Below are positions 50,943-58,214 of a DNA stretch of 64,000 bases, in pieces (the stretch's first letter is position 1; each line of letters opens with the position of its first letter). Origin of the DNA: Bryopsis sp. KO-2023 (taxonomy: Eukaryota; Chlorophyta; Ulvophyceae; Bryopsidales; Bryopsidaceae); the NCBI GenBank assembly GCA_030272585.1, contig BSYQ01000010.1, positions 4,154,001 to 4,218,000 of the forward strand, given 5' to 3'. The translations under genes were made by a program, and so were the position numbers. The notes below the pieces were generated by a model. The model made no database searches, had not been told where the DNA came from, and saw only the letters and a program-made list of their open reading frames with translations.

Positions 50943-52361
50943 ATGTTCGAGTGCCCCGCATGCAAGGTCAGGTTTAGGACGGAGAGAGGGCTCAAAATGC
51001 ATCAGCTCCAAGTTCCGTTTCCTACTTGTGGAACAGAGCGTGCACGAGATGTGCCACCTATCCCAACGAAAGGGGGGGGTCAAGAAGGTGGAACAAGTGA
51101 CTGTCAGCCAAAGAAGAGGAGGAGGGAAGATGAGGCTGTTCAAGGACGAGAGCTTGACAAAGGAGGCTATGATGAAGAAATCTTCAGTTCCATGTAAACA
51201 CTTCTTGTGCTCGAGGGATCCCAGAGTTGAACAAAAAATCGGAATAAAAAGTTGTGAAGTCTGGTTGGACAGAATTAAACTCCTTTATTCAATGTTCATG
51301 TGGACTGGGCGCTCTTGCATATTGGTTTTTCATTTTCTCTTCTATTCTCATAGGCTACGGATTAATTGAATGGTGACCACAAGCTAGTCCAAGTATTTCT
51401 CAAACCTCCATCAATTTTGATTCTTACACTTTTCTACAGGGATGATGAGGTTGTCCGGGGATTAAGCGGAGATGAAGGAGAAAGCTCTCGCCCTATTCTC
51501 TCGCCCAATGCCTCAGTTGAGGGAGGATATGGACGGGCTGAAGAAGACAACCCAGATTTTGTGAACAATAAGGACAAAGAAGCTGAAATCAAGAATTTTG
51601 ACAGTATTGCACAAATTGCGGTCTTCTGCACACAAGAAACCACAGAAGCAGGGGCGACGAAGCTTTTGCAGATCCTCAACCATCCAGATTTTGACCTCGA
51701 AATGGTTCGGCAGAACTTAAAATCGAGTCGGGATGTGAATAAATATGTGGATTCACAAGGATTCATTGGCGAGGTGAGTTTGTTCTCACATTGATAAATA
51801 TTTAAAGGAATAAGAGAGAATGAGTGAAGGCTCGGTCTTCAACATCTCCCAGGATAAAACAAATGAAAACTTGGCATAACTCTCTCCACCTCTGGTTATT
51901 TTTGGACTAATTGACCTTTAGCCCAAGATGGGAGTTTACTCGCTAACCCTGCCGAATATGAATATTATTATACTCAAGAAAATGATTAAAGTACATTTGT
52001 TCATTGTGATAGGGATTCCGGGAACACGATTGTTCCCAGCCTTCAGACCACCAAAAGGTTACCCTCTTGTACCGGGACCCTTTAGATGCATTGCGTCATC
52101 TGGTCAAAACAATGCCATCAGAAAGCTACAAGAAAGGAAAGGTTCTAATAAAAGACGACAAGCGGGTGTACAGTGGTCTAAACACGGGCGATTGGTGGTT
52201 GGAAAGACAAAAACGTCTCCCATATGGTAGCATTATTCTGCCATTGATATTCTATTCGGATTCCACCGATCTAGATGAGACGAGGAAGTTGACATCAAGA
52301 CCATTGATTATGACATTGGGAAATTTCTTGCCACATCATCAAAGATCTAAGAATGGACACG
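50943..52361 (+). pseudogene. Plavaka/KDZ-type transposase gene, 3'-truncated by LTR element
   Basis: Exons 50943-51193, 51440-51773 and 52013-52361 join in frame. The protein opens with a C2H2-like finger (MFECPACKVRFRTERGLKMH), the usual N-terminus of Plavaka transposases. An acidic linker follows, then a block typical of the family: TLLYRDPLDALRHLVKT, KRVYSGLNTGDWWLERQKRL and SIILPLIFYSDSTDLD, ending in PLIMTLGNFLPHHQRS. The reading frame runs straight into the left LTR at 52,362, where the first in-frame stop occurs. The rest of the transposase is not found on the far side of the retrotransposon. It is therefore a broken cut-and-paste element in the CACTA-related KDZ superfamily. The intact exons suggest it was lost recently. 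Confidence 0.75.
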
Positions 52362-52634
52362 TGTTATAAACCTCCCTCTGCTAGGAAAATAACCTCCCAG
52401 CGCCCTTCCTTGAAGTCCCTTTAACCCATCAAACCCCCACTCCTTGATGGGACCCTTGAGATGACAGGGATCACCTCAGGGCGAGACACCTGGGCTTGCT
52501 ATGAGTCATCCTTTCAGCACACGTGCTATAATGATCTCATGGACCTTAAGCATATGACTAGAGCCATGTTAGTGCCCACGACTAACCCTTGAGCTCTAGT
52601 AGTGCATAGACATACTCGGCGTACACTTATAACA
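52362..52634 (-). repeat. 3' LTR of chromovirus
   Basis: 273 bp, beginning TGTTATAAAC and ending TATAACA. It differs from the other LTR by about two bases. Just inside (52,635-52,650) the - strand reads AGGGAGGGGGCAC, a polypurine tract for plus-strand priming. Confidence 0.92.
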
Positions 52635-52783: not shown

Positions 52784-55700
52784 TCAAACCTTCGCTTTTG
52801 ATCTTCTATGGATCGTGCGAGGTACTACAGTCGACTGTTCTTGCGATTGGTGAAATGCATCAACCAATTCCTTTGCATGCAAGACATTTTCTTCGGGTTC
52901 CCAAGAGTTATGTTCATGGCCATAACCAAGCCACTTCACAAGGTATTCTGTATGGCATTTCTTCCCTCTGCGTCGCTCTCTGCGATCAAGAATGCGCTCA
53001 ACCTCCCACTCCAGATCTCCCTCGATTTCAACAGGTGGTGGTGGTTGTACAGTTCCTTTAGCCCAATATGGCTTTAACAGTGAAGCATGGAACACCGGAT
53101 GTATGGGCAAAGTTGCAGGAAGCTTCAGCTTGAATGCAACCTCATTTATTTCACGCTCAATTGGGAAAGGTCCTACCCATTTTGGCGTTAATTTACGTGA
53201 ACCTGGGTGCTTGAGTCGAAGATTTCTTGCATCTAATAATACAAGGTCTCCTACTTTGACTTGCACTGGTACACGATGGCGATCAGCTTGCGCTTTAAAG
53301 CGTTGCTGTGCGGCTTGAAGGCGTTTCTTTGCCTCAACAATCCCTTCCCGAATTTCATTCGTCATTTTCTGAACTTCTGGTACAGCCACTTGCTTCGACC
53401 CTTTTCTAGGGATCTGAGCAGTCAATGCTGTCCATGGATCTCTTCCATAATTCAGAAAGAAGGGTGTTTCACCAGTTGCTTCGGATTTAGAGTTATTTAT
53501 TGCAAACTCTACAACCGGTAACAAATCCGCCCAATTCTTTTGGGATGGCCCGACAAAGTGGCGAAGTGTATCCTCCATGACTTTGTTCATAGCTTCGGTT
53601 TGCCCATCTGTTTGTGGGTGATAAGCCGAAGACAAGGCCTGTGAGATTTCCCATGTATAACACAACTCCCTGAAGAAGTGCGATACAAATCTCGGGTCTC
53701 TATCTGTGACCAACTTCTTTGGCATACCATGTGCTTTGAATACATGGTTCACAAAGAGTTTTGCTGCATCTACGGCTGAGCACTCTGTACTTGTTGCCGC
53801 CAAATGAACCATTTTGGTCAACATATCCACGAATACGAGGATTGCATCATGACCTTCTCCTCTGGATGGTGGGAGATTAGTGACAAAATCCATCGAAACA
53901 TTTTCCCATTGTGCCTTCGGGATAGGCAAGGGTTTCAGAGGGCCTTGTGGCTTTGTTCGCCTCCCTTTATGCCTTTGACATGAGTCACATCCTCGCACAT
54001 AGGATTTAATTTGGTCCTCCATTTGAGGCCACCAGAAATGTTTCTTGATTTGCCGACTTGTCTTAGCCACTCCAAAGTGACCCGAATAGACAGTGCTATG
54101 GCAATCTTGGATTATTTCTTGTCTCAATGATCCATCATTTGGTACTGATATCACATTTCCATTCCACCAAATTCCATCTTGGTTCTGTAACATCTGGGCA
54201 GCTTCCAGAGTTTGATACCAAGGATCTTTGGTGTACCCTTCAACCAGCCTTGACTCCAACTGGGTATGATAACCCCGAGGCAGAGATGGGACCTCAGGAT
54301 CCCGCGGTCTAGAAACCAAGCCACTCGATCTCACGGTCTCGCATAATACTCCAATTGAAGAAGGAGAAGACGGTATACGTGACAAGGGATCAGCCACATT
54401 TACTCGCCCTGGTCTATACTCCCATTCAAATTGGAAATCATGGAGCAATTCTAGCCAGCGGACCTGCCGTCGATTCAAGGTCGATCGGGAATGAAAGAAT
54501 GTGTTTGGACTATGGTCGGTAATCACTCGGAATTTTCTGCCTTGCAAGTAGCATCTCCATAATTGAAGTGCATACACAGTAGCATACATTTCCTGATCAC
54601 TCGTCGACCAATTGAGTTGTGGACCTTGCAGCTTTTTGCTTTCATAAGCTATTGGGTGTCCTTCTTGCAGGAGAACTGCTCCAATTGCCTTTGTAGAAGC
54701 ATCAGTGATTACTTCGAAAGGTTTAGAGAAGTCCGGCAAAACCAAACACGGTGCTTCCGTGAGTGCCGTTTTCACCCCTTCAAAAGCTGTCTCACACTCA
54801 TGAGTCCATTCCCATGTCTTCTTCTTTTTGAGAAGATCAGTCATTGGAGAAGCCAAGGCTGAATACCCCTGTACGAACTTGCGAAAGTAATTGGCGAGTC
54901 CGAGGAACGACCTTAAGTCATCCACCCCACTAGGACGAGGCCAATTTTTCACTTTAGCCGTTTTACTCGGGTCAACTGAGATACCATTGCGGCCCACCAC
55001 GAACCCTAAATAGCGCAACTCAGTTTTGTTGAAGTCACATTTGGACTTCTTCAAGAACAATTTATGTTCTCGCAACCTTTGTAATACTTCTCGAAGATGT
55101 ATCAAATGTTCCTTTGGTGTCTTTGAAAAGACTAAAATGTCATCCAAGTAGATCAAGACATATTTGCCTATCATACCATGGAAGACTGAGTTCATCAGTG
55201 TCTGAAACACTGCCGGTGCATTGGATAATCCCATCGGGAGCACCCGGTACTCAAATAAACCAAAGGGTGTTTTGAAGGCTGTTTTGGGGATGTCATCTTC
55301 CTTGACTCTGACCTGCCAGTATCCGGCTCTCAGGTCAAGAGAAGTAAAACATCTCGAGCCTTGTAACTCATCCAAGAGATCGTCGATCCGTGGAATCGGG
55401 AACTGATTCCGGATAGTTACTTTATTAAGACCCCTGTAGTCTATGCACATCCTAAAGCCTCCATCCTTTTTCGGTACGAAAAGAACCGGAGCACCCCAAG
55501 GGCTAGAACTAGGTCTTATGAGCTTTTTGGCTAAGAGTTCGGACAATTGTTCCTGAATCTCTTGCCGCTCTGCGGGTGAATACCGAAAAAGTGGCCGGTT
55601 TACGGGACGTGTACCTTCTTCTAAAGGAATGTCCACTTCTACGGCTCTTTCCGGGGGATATTCCGCCAAACCAGTTACAAACAAATCATCAAATTCCTCC

Positions 55701-57181
55701 AAGAGAGATTCCATCTCCTTCTCAGGGACTTGATCTGATTCACCGGTTTCCTCCGCTACACTTACATGTGCGGGTACGTCCTGTACTTCACGAATTACCA
55801 CCAGAAATGGTTGAAGAGAGGAATCCTTGAGTTTTCTCTTCACCTGTGGAATAGTGAGTAAGGAACCAACATTTCTGTGGGGAATTCTTTGTTCTCCACC
55901 AGTGGCCTTGGGCAAAAGACCCTGGCGTATCAAGATCCGTTGATTTGCGGAATTCGTCACGGCACACTTCTTCTCAAAGAAGTCCAAGACTGCCTTGCGA
56001 TTTCGCAACCACGTATCACCCAAAATGATATCAAATTTCTCCATCAGATCAATCACCAAACAATTCAACTTCTCGCGGAAGCCTTGAATTTTCAGAGAGA
56101 TCTTTGTTTCACCTAAGATATCAATATAACTCCCATTGGCCAATTCGGCTTGCGAACTTGTGGTTACCTTGAAGGAAATCCCATTTTGTTCACAAAATCT
56201 CTTGGAAAGGAATGCTAATCCCTTAGCTCCTGAGTCCAAAAGACAATGGGCAGGAATGCCACTAAGAGTTCCCTCAAAGTGCATTGACATCCTGTCTTGG
56301 GTAAGTAAATCTTGAGTATCCTTTGGTACCAAGGGGACAGGTGGGTCATAGTATACATTCACTGGCCAAGGAAGACCTGGAAGTCTTTTCCGGCGCTTTC
56401 CTTTCATAGCGGTGAACAAAACCATGCCCTTCTTGTATTGTGCAATTAGTCTCATAGAGGCCAAGGCCGGATGCGGCTCTTTATTCCACTGTGGAACCAG
56501 AATGCAACAAGAAGTATTGTGTGGAGACTTATTCTTTTCTCTCACATAGTGATCAATGTATTTGTGAAGCTCCTTGAATGGAGGATTCAGCCATACATGC
56601 TCACCCGAAAGAGTAGTCTCAAAAAACCCCTCACCAATACAAAACTTTGCACACAAGGCATTGGTTTGGTCTGAGTTAGCACACCCGTCCAAGCTAAACG
56701 CTTGTCCCGTGAGTGACTCGAGACGCTGAAACTCTGCCTTGAGTATTGTTTTGTCTGATTGGATATTAGATCTTTCATTCACATCCTCTGGAGGGACAGA
56801 AGTTTGTGCTTCTTCCTGTTTCTCCTTTCTCTTTTGACCACGAGTCACGATAGGCGCTAAATGTGCACTATCCACTTCCATTGGGTCACAATTAGGATGA
56901 GAATTCAAATCTTGCCTCAGAAATTTCCAGTCATGGGGCTTGGACCTCTGAGAAACATGTGTAACAACCTCTTTGGGTTTTCCACATTTATGTCCTCGTG
57001 TCCAAGTCTCTCCACAAAACCAGCACAATCCCAACTGTTTGCGAGCTTTCAACTCTGCTTTGGTCAGTTGGCTGACTGATTTTCTCTTGGAAACTTGAGG
57101 TTTAGAGGAATGCTCAGTAGCATTTTTCCTCTCATCAAAAGAATCACTTTGCCCCGTGTTCTTTTGGGTGGATTTCTGCAT
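52784..57181 (-). CDS. Chromovirus polyprotein: zinc knuckle, Dam-like MTase, PR, RT, RNase H, IN, chromodomain
   Basis: A single 1,465-residue frame. In order: a Gag-type zinc knuckle (residues 53-66, CWFCGETWTRGHKC); a phage-Dam-like adenine methyltransferase domain (about 145-285, with FSLDGCAN and catalytic-type WLNPPF, then CCILVPQW and PGLPWPVNVYYDPP); aspartic protease (LLDSGAKG, about 314-321); reverse transcriptase (about 550-720, YLDD at 678-681); RNase H (FEVITDAST); integrase with an HHCC zinc site (HSGHFG..H..CDSCQRHKG region), a DDE core (SMDFVTNL, VTDRDPRF, SSAYHPQTDGQTE); and a C-terminal chromodomain (WEVERILDRRERRRGKK..EYLVKWLGY..NSWEP). The chromodomain should direct integration to marked chromatin. 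The frame is open upstream to about 57,360 without ATG. A capsid (Gag CA) region of normal length is not recognisable, so Gag may be supplied elsewhere or be very divergent. Confidence 0.93.
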   Translation of the reverse strand: MQKSTQKNTGQSDSFDERKNATEHSSKPQVSKRKSVSQLTKAELKARKQLGLCWFCGETWTRGHKCGKPKEVVTHVSQRSKPHDWKFLRQDLNSHPNCDPMEVDSAHLAPIVTRGQKRKEKQEEAQTSVPPEDVNERSNIQSDKTILKAEFQRLESLTGQAFSLDGCANSDQTNALCAKFCIGEGFFETTLSGEHVWLNPPFKELHKYIDHYVREKNKSPHNTSCCILVPQWNKEPHPALASMRLIAQYKKGMVLFTAMKGKRRKRLPGLPWPVNVYYDPPVPLVPKDTQDLLTQDRMSMHFEGTLSGIPAHCLLDSGAKGLAFLSKRFCEQNGISFKVTTSSQAELANGSYIDILGETKISLKIQGFREKLNCLVIDLMEKFDIILGDTWLRNRKAVLDFFEKKCAVTNSANQRILIRQGLLPKATGGEQRIPHRNVGSLLTIPQVKRKLKDSSLQPFLVVIREVQDVPAHVSVAEETGESDQVPEKEMESLLEEFDDLFVTGLAEYPPERAVEVDIPLEEGTRPVNRPLFRYSPAERQEIQEQLSELLAKKLIRPSSSPWGAPVLFVPKKDGGFRMCIDYRGLNKVTIRNQFPIPRIDDLLDELQGSRCFTSLDLRAGYWQVRVKEDDIPKTAFKTPFGLFEYRVLPMGLSNAPAVFQTLMNSVFHGMIGKYVLIYLDDILVFSKTPKEHLIHLREVLQRLREHKLFLKKSKCDFNKTELRYLGFVVGRNGISVDPSKTAKVKNWPRPSGVDDLRSFLGLANYFRKFVQGYSALASPMTDLLKKKKTWEWTHECETAFEGVKTALTEAPCLVLPDFSKPFEVITDASTKAIGAVLLQEGHPIAYESKKLQGPQLNWSTSDQEMYATVYALQLWRCYLQGRKFRVITDHSPNTFFHSRSTLNRRQVRWLELLHDFQFEWEYRPGRVNVADPLSRIPSSPSSIGVLCETVRSSGLVSRPRDPEVPSLPRGYHTQLESRLVEGYTKDPWYQTLEAAQMLQNQDGIWWNGNVISVPNDGSLRQEIIQDCHSTVYSGHFGVAKTSRQIKKHFWWPQMEDQIKSYVRGCDSCQRHKGRRTKPQGPLKPLPIPKAQWENVSMDFVTNLPPSRGEGHDAILVFVDMLTKMVHLAATSTECSAVDAAKLFVNHVFKAHGMPKKLVTDRDPRFVSHFFRELCYTWEISQALSSAYHPQTDGQTEAMNKVMEDTLRHFVGPSQKNWADLLPVVEFAINNSKSEATGETPFFLNYGRDPWTALTAQIPRKGSKQVAVPEVQKMTNEIREGIVEAKKRLQAAQQRFKAQADRHRVPVQVKVGDLVLLDARNLRLKHPGSRKLTPKWVGPFPIEREINEVAFKLKLPATLPIHPVFHASLLKPYWAKGTVQPPPPVEIEGDLEWEVERILDRRERRRGKKCHTEYLVKWLGYGHEHNSWEPEENVLHAKELVDAFHQSQEQSTVVPRTIHRRSKAKV

Positions 57182-57734
57182 TTTCTTGCAGTATCCCTCT
57201 ACTTCAAGCCCGCGGCGAAGAAGTGAGTATGAGAGTTATTTTTAGACCAACACTTGTGTTGGGGGAAACCTCTGTGGATATTCCCTTTGTCCTTTAGACA
57301 AATCTGTAACCACCTCTTTGTGTGGATAACTCTTCTTTTCGTGGTGTTTTCTTGTAAACTGCTTTAATTTAATTTTTCTTTGGACACAACAAGCACCTCT
57401 AGGGTCTGCTTGAAAAATCTCCAAAAATCTCAAAATATCGTCCAATCCTGACGAAAAATATTAAGGACCTCTTGGGTCTCCTTAAAATAGACGAAGGACC
57501 TCTTGGGTCTCCTTCGCAACTCGAAAAACCACTCTGCAGAAAGTCTGAAGCAATACCCTAACTTTGACAGAGCATAACTTCCCGCACACAGCTCGGAATA
57601 AACCCCAACTGGACTCAAACGAAGCGGATTTTTCTTAGCTTACTTTTCGACACCTTATTTGTCCAATTCGGACCTTAGACGCCGAAGTTATCGCCGTTTC
57701 CGTGACGGACTCTTCACCTGCTCCGAAACCAAAC
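57182..57734 (-). other. Chromovirus 5' leader and primer-binding site
   Basis: About 550 bp between the 5' LTR and the polyprotein start. It begins after the LTR with GTTTGGTTTCGGAGCAGG, in which TGGTTTCGGAGC is a plausible tRNA primer-binding site ending in the obligatory TGG complement of CCA. Which tRNA is used was not determined. No Gag capsid motif was found in any frame. Short - strand frames of 67 and 62 codons (57,445-57,242 and 57,618-57,430) have no recognisable domain. Confidence 0.55.
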
Positions 57735-58007
57735 TGTTATAAACCTCTCTCTCCTAGGAAAATAACCTCCCAGCGCCCTTCCTTGAAGTCCCTTTAACCC
57801 ATCAAACCCCCACTCCTTGATGGGACCCTTGAGATGACAGGGATCACCTCAGGGCGAGACACCTGGGCTTGCTATGAGTCATCCTTTCAGCACACGTGCT
57901 ATAATGATCTCATGGACCTTAAGCATATGACTAGAGCCATGTTAGTGCCCACGACTAACCCTTGAGCTCTAGTAGTGCATAGACATACTCGGCGTACACT
58001 TATAACA
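57735..58007 (-). repeat. 5' LTR of chromovirus
   Basis: 273 bp, near-identical to 52,362-52,634. Differences are confined to the first 30 bp (CCTCTCTCTCC versus CCTCCCTCTGC). It contains the transcription start for the - strand element; a TATAATGATC segment at about 57,899-57,908 is a possible core element but is unproven. Confidence 0.92.
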
Positions 58008-58214
58008 TCTAGCATCAACAACCCAACAGTGAGAGCCCTGCAATTTCCCTCCCTAAATATATAAGAATCAACCCCCACCCCCCCCACCTCCGTTTTCACA
58101 TCGACATTAACACGCCCCACAGGAAATCTCTAGAAGGCAAAGATGTATTGACTAATTGATGTGTCTGCATATTTGTATGGCACTTGGCGAGAGGCACTTG
58201 GAATTTTTCTGATA

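Follow-up and report, generated by a model that had tools for sequence, protein, structure and literature searches.

Organization of the element

The window (the whole stretch of 64,000 nucleotides that was analysed, from Bryopsis sp. KO-2023, contig BSYQ01000010.1, positions 4,154,001 to 4,218,000) carries a Ty3/gypsy element on its minus strand, with a single open frame at 52784-57235 which encodes 1483 amino acids in the ORF translation of the window. The parts of the element are as follows:

57735..58007, minus strand: 5' LTR, 273 nt, with 2 mismatches to the 3' LTR and ends TGTTATAA...TTATAACA
52362..52634, minus strand: 3' LTR, from comparison of the LTR pair
52784..57181, minus strand: Pol-type polyprotein ORF from its first ATG, from the ORF and Pfam domains
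56984..57025, minus strand: zinc knuckle CWFCGETWTRGHKC, of the form CX2CX7HXC, read by eye in the translation and matched by no Pfam model
56327..56776, minus strand: Dam-like methyltransferase-fold domain, residues 154-303, from profiles and predicted structure
56681..56698, minus strand: FSLDGC, motif I-like, counterpart of the phage FTLD block in alignment with 7 phage enzymes
56576..56587, minus strand: NPPF, which aligns with motif IV of the 7 phage enzymes and is present in 22 of 22 family A loci
55946..56263, minus strand: aspartic protease RVP_2, residues 325-430 (Pfam E 8.5e-8)
54998..55477, minus strand: reverse transcriptase RVT_1 (Pfam E 1.3e-40)
54434..54733, minus strand: RNase H (Pfam E 5.9e-32)
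53615..54136, minus strand: integrase, H2C2 zinc domain and rve core (Pfam E 4.8e-22 and 2.2e-9)
52847..53008, minus strand: chromodomain PF00385 (Pfam E 4.9e-19)

Paired LTRs and the order protease, reverse transcriptase (RT), RNase H and integrase, by which Ty3/gypsy elements are recognized, were both found in the window element, with Pfam placing the chromodomain last. A C-terminal chromodomain on the integrase, the mark of a chromovirus, was present in the family to which the element belongs (A, E 4.9e-19) and in its four sister families in the same genome (B to E, E 5e-18 to 9e-18). This chromodomain is the single character by which the element may be assigned to the chromoviruses, and chromodomain Gypsy lineages outside that group are described in PMC12477816. 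The fully open frame and the near-identical LTRs (2 of 273 positions differ) reported in a first-pass annotation of this DNA were both borne out. No target-site duplication was present around the window copy (flanks 52356-52361 and 58008-58013), for which recombination between copies is one explanation.

The methyltransferase-like stretch which that annotation had placed between the knuckle and the aspartic protease is real; it comprises about 150 residues, with the knuckle before it and the protease after, and FSLDGC, NPPF and the C-terminal end PWPVNVYYDPP were all located in the open frame.

Homology and predicted fold

Homology to phage-type Dam enzymes, proposed from motifs alone, is supported by several profiles. 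The window domain matched Dam PF05869 at E 1.7e-4 and 21.8 bits on a 187-residue piece (cut-off 28.1) and at E 0.0036 on the whole frame, TIGR01712 at E 3.3e-4 and PHROG_111 at E 7.2e-9, whilst profile-profile comparison with the 7 phage enzymes gave a probability of 98.4%. Most family B stretches from the genome search scored 28 to 29.8 bits against PF05869, and a 655-aa piece 26.7 bits. Families C, D and E were not reported by the Pfam Dam model at E values up to 0.01, and it is their homology to A and B, together with profiles, that places them among Dam-like domains; a profile built from 8 rows with a non-canonical motif IV, and from these only, still matched the phage enzymes (97.6%).

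The structure predicted for the window domain (pLDDT 88.3, pTM 0.83) is that of a Rossmann methyltransferase fold, named phage N6A enzymes matching it at E 1.4e-6 and weaker, one with a TM of 0.74. The family E domain, which lacks NPPF, was modelled as the same fold (pLDDT 82.5), its top viral match having an E value of 2.8e-5 and the next, a named phage enzyme, 1.1e-3. The missing 'FxGxG' AdoMet motif, noted at first, is not an objection because the 7 phage enzymes carry FTLD (five of them), YDLD or LVLD at the same place.

Searches further afield were less productive. Alignment A3, run against IMG/VR, picked out 49 pattern stretches but no close viral relative that could be confirmed, and profile A3 found no match in the PDB at E values up to 10; the single window sequence matched PCIF1 there at E 3.5e-4. 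MT-A70 PF05063 gave no row in the window frame at E values up to 10, in a search where HMMER filters drop most rows above 0.1.

Families in the host genome

The host genome (91 Mb, 28 contigs) has 107 exon-wise chlorophyll a/b-binding matches, the mark of an alga or another photosynthetic eukaryote. In this genome the window domain gave 150 scored matches of 181 candidates, as did the family E domain when used as the query. By identity to the window domain these fall into five families: A at 96% or above (30 of the 150), B at about 64%, C and D at 40-45% and E at 38-40%, with a few fragments intermediate. Representatives of B to E carry integrase and chromodomain according to Pfam; in seven sampled B-E copies the two LTRs are 99.6-100% identical to each other, and 5-bp target duplications, the flanks being read by eye, were seen in five sampled copies (two B, three E).

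NPPF is kept in every one of the 22 family A loci, window included, of which 20 are the best matches to the window domain, and likewise in 23 of 23 family B loci, 20 of which were chosen by the Dam profile itself. The motif IV counterpart reads DPGR or DSGR in C and D and NPGK in E, so that three of the five host families (C, D, E) are non-canonical at this site.

The families also differ upstream of the knuckle. An N-terminal region common to B, C and E, whose queries match each other at E values of 9e-58 or lower, matched no A locus (best E 0.2), the family A stretches compared being window 57236-57735 and loci L001-L020, L033 and L034. From its position before the knuckle we take this region to be the capsid; no Pfam Gag model matched it in the B-E pieces at E values up to 0.01. 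Of the Gag-type setting that had been described for the domain, the knuckle stands, as read by eye, but family A does not have the Gag-like region found in its sister families. As A is without this region, and its LTR and untranslated parts are 68-75% like those of B, family A may depend on the Gag of family B.

Distribution among relatives

Domain searches beyond the host yielded 5 polyproteins and 15 shorter proteins, several of which continue into the protease; canonical motif IV was found in 10 of these 20, a sample biased towards A. In a search by RT and integrase, 7847 of 7979 scored candidates passed; the best 120 were used, 119 of them new. A profile of 14 domains identified the domain in 50 of these 119 best RT relatives (of 7847), rising to 57 after one enrichment round, where some of the rows counted hold a partial domain (P0109 has 43 residues). 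Among the 62 best-listed relatives without the domain, 33 start too near the RT to contain it. The Pfam Dam model flags 6 of the best 120.

The RT tree comprised 94 rows, five from the host, and left out 33 of 140 labelled rows, in which the frame starts within 420 residues of the RT, together with two short-RT non-carriers; near-copies were removed before the trees and the residue table were made, and host loci were cut to one per family for the RT tree and residue table. One branch, supported at 100/98, takes in 75 rows, of which 67 carry the domain, and none of the 19 rows outside it does so, in a sample confined to those relatives whose RT is nearest to that of the window element. Of the eight clade rows without the domain, five come from Haematococcus gene models and may reflect faulty prediction. 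The domain tree, which omits partial rows P0006, P0011, P0017, P0018 and P0020 and five near-copies, has long, poorly placed branches and was not relied on. A single capture near the base of the clade would be the simplest history, and the domain is not confined to the window element but clade-wide and old.

Catalytic and conserved residues

Canonical NPP[FY] was present in 8 of the 57 RT-sampled domains, 48 being non-canonical and 1 a gap. The canonical label changes 8 times on the RT tree, at least 5 of the changes being forced by well-supported branches; since the phage enzymes have the motif, we read these changes as losses. The survey of NPPF proposed at the outset as a check found the motif in all 22 family A loci and a non-canonical motif in most RT-sampled relatives.

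The N-terminal WxTP motif, which may define the phage family as far as 7 phage sequences can be read (it is present in 6 of them), is absent from all 63 assessable retroelement rows, A and B included; this count contains near-copies, sets aside 30 rows as not assessable and has three rows with a looser [ST]P pattern. The residue table covers 82 non-redundant rows, of which 20 are canonical, 61 are non-canonical and 1 has a gap. The motif I Asp is retained in 18 of 18 canonical rows as against 23 of 49 others, and the canonical rows also retain several further residues; however, the non-canonical rows are more divergent overall and, because related rows are not independent, the P values of the residue table are descriptive only.

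A second set of residues is kept alike in canonical and non-canonical rows, namely Y82, K86, P90, P100, D149 and P151 of the domain alignment. Retention in canonical versus non-canonical rows was 19/20 versus 52/61 for the Lys, 20/20 versus 56/61 for the Pro and 17/19 versus 49/58 for the Asp of YYDPP, and ten positions stand at 80% or above even in the non-canonical rows.

Selection on the domain

Between families the domain is under purifying selection, with or without the catalytic motif. Comparison of A with B by the Nei-Gojobori method gave dN/dS values of 0.12 for the domain, 0.08 for the protease and 0.56 for the spacer before the domain, with synonymous sites near saturation (dS 1.7); by the same method C versus D, neither of which has NPPF, gave 0.17, 0.175 and 0.62, respectively. 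Within families the values are mixed and the changes too few for use: the distinct changes in family A are 14 nonsynonymous and 3 synonymous, where 3.65:1 would be expected, the domain dN/dS is 1.3 for D27-D28 and 1.1 for E29-E31 on 5-6 changes, and it is 0.07 for C24-C25 and 0.13 for C25-C26. Absent constraint among recent copies may perhaps be expected after insertion.

Discussion

Relation to known systems

The retroelement domain shares with phage-type N6-adenine methyltransferases a collinear series of FTLD, NPP[FY], an ILVP strand, KG..F and a PFP/PWP strand, as well as the same predicted fold. It differs from them in being fused into Pol, in lacking WxTP in all assessable rows, with QDW not seen in the aligned rows, in its mostly non-canonical motif IV and in its near-fixed Y, K, P, TSAC and YYDPP. 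From PCIF1, the cap-adjacent adenosine N6-methyltransferase, the window domain is set apart by its score of 15.4 bits against PF12237 (cut-off 31.1). The one host PCIF1 homologue found, L065 (G000:C1:2009993-2010475), matches PF12237 at E 7e-47. It reads AGPPY where human PCIF1 has NPPF, and the host enzyme may therefore be inactive or altered. For capture from this gene, a phmmer search with it found 0 of 36 retroelement and 0 of 7 phage domains, a test too weak to exclude such an origin.

Among mobile elements, the DIRS retrotransposons are described as having a Dam-like MT domain (PF05869) inside Pol (PMC3783388, PMC5890265) and a tyrosine recombinase, without aspartic protease and DDE integrase (PMC3783388). 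The window element resembles them in carrying a Dam-like domain within a retroelement Pol (PMC3783388), and differs in having a protease and an rve integrase and no recombinase match in Pfam. KnitGypsy-Dnmt3 and the Symbiodinium DNMT retrotransposons likewise hold a captured DNA methyltransferase in Pol, one of them in a Gypsy; however, theirs are C5-cytosine enzymes, called structurally unrelated to Dam-like adenine enzymes (PMC5890265). The Ectocarpus Sola element has a prokaryote-type amino-methyltransferase (ParB and N4C/N6A) in an algal mobile element, but there it is an accessory gene of a DNA transposon and not a retroelement Pol domain (PMC12477816). The orchid Ty3/Gypsy with an AlkB m6A demethylase also brings an adenine-modification domain into a Gypsy element, although this is an eraser, lies in an additional ORF and occurred only in Phalaenopsis in that screen (PMC9289625). 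One account assigns DAM domains to DIRS and DCM domains to Ty3/Gypsy and DIRS (PMC6338049). That a Dam-like domain is no standard part of Ty3/gypsy, as the first-pass annotation had held, agrees with the literature searched, in which no description of one there was found; Repbase and most subscription papers lay outside that search, and an earlier mention is possible (Iyer, Zhang and Aravind 2016).

Origin and role of the domain

We consider it reasonably probable that a chromodomain Ty3/gypsy ancestor captured a phage-type methyltransferase which is now, for the most part, a non-catalytic pseudo-methyltransferase module. The ancestor of the clade would have captured, probably once, a phage-type N6-adenine methyltransferase gene, which would have become fused in frame on the N-terminal side of the aspartic protease; the fold has since passed down with Pol under purifying selection, whilst catalytic motif IV would have decayed in most of the sampled descendants. 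A second residue set has stayed nearly fixed, made up of Y, K and P residues that lie in the helix behind motif IV or follow it, of the TSAC block and of the C-terminal YYDPP strand. The role selected across the clade would be non-catalytic, with the domain serving Gag-Pol in binding or structure, perhaps by holding on to RNA or cDNA or by anchoring the protease within the particle. A putative binding or scaffold role would fit the site beside the protease and the fixed non-catalytic residues. With motif IV non-canonical in most relatives and C versus D still constrained, it is improbable that catalysis accounts for the retention of the domain across most of the clade as sampled. Family A belongs to a minority which keeps both NPPF and the motif I Asp, and as the active-site residues are still together in A and B, these families may still methylate RNA or cDNA as an added activity.

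Some results pull the other way. The motif I Asp of all 18 canonical rows, kept along with several other residues, is as expected of lineages that still use an active site; the unconstrained recent copies, the A-B dS of 1.7, the failure of the Pfam Dam model to report C, D or E and the eight clade rows without the domain also count against this reading.

The first of these leads to an explanation that we think doubtful but which deserves the most attention of the alternatives, in which the domain of the NPPF lineages is a working N6-adenine methyltransferase that marks element cDNA or RNA in the particle, the motif-less families being later losses. The intact NPPF of the A and B loci (with the Dam-profile choice of 20 B loci in mind), the retained motif I Asp, the A versus B dN/dS of 0.12 and a predicted fold near both the m6Am cap enzyme PCIF1 and phage Dam enzymes are all consistent with it; in addition, MT-A70 genes are present in the host, with 10 exon-wise matches at four places, so that adenine methylation is plausible in the cell. 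It has to accommodate, however, the loss of phage WxTP from every assessable row, A and B among them, a motif IV that is non-canonical in most sampled relatives and a Pfam Dam score for A under the cut-off. The specific proposition that the NPPF lineages, family A included, mark their own cDNA or RNA with a working enzyme whilst the sister families are non-enzymatic seems to us unlikely. The observation made in the first-pass annotation is confirmed and its interpretation partly supported; as a general statement, that the domain writes 6mA is not supported, given the three host families and 48 of 57 RT-sampled relatives in which motif IV is non-canonical and the rest of the domain is kept.

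That the domain spread through recombination with DIRS-like elements in the same genomes, with no separate capture, is very unlikely. Such a frame, with RT, RNase H and then a Dam match (E 3.9e-5), does exist in the host, but its domain lies after RNase H, another place in Pol, retains the phage QDW block and is no closer in sequence; its bit score is 15.3 with the local phage profile and -0.8 with its chromoviral counterpart, which, for this one sequence, argues for separate captures. The frame (L057, G000:C1:9559000-9561500) reads HPP for NPP in its Dam match and is the one read of five Dam-profile rows of the genome search with 690-aa frames; a putative tyrosine recombinase was seen there by eye from a motif only, in a frame for which Pfam reports nothing.

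It is likewise very unlikely that the domain is a decaying, functionless remnant kept since its deletion would break the polyprotein, for although the youngest copies show no visible constraint and eight clade rows are without it, the domain is between families about as constrained as the protease (dN/dS 0.12-0.17), which the spacer before it is not, and ten positions persist at 80% or above even among non-canonical rows.

Significance

Captured cytosine methyltransferases in Gypsy, DIRS and LINE elements (PMC5890265) and Dam-like domains in DIRS were known before; here a Dam-like fold marks a whole chromodomain Ty3/gypsy clade, and its repeated change to a likely pseudo-enzyme is the most unusual part. 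Should the NPPF lineages prove active, one retroelement would both write adenine methylation and read chromatin through its chromodomain. The clade offers a natural experiment, since in one genome families that are related and have recently amplified lie side by side, some with the catalytic motif and some lacking it, and it is thus directly testable whether such elements use adenine methylation or have recycled the fold for another job.
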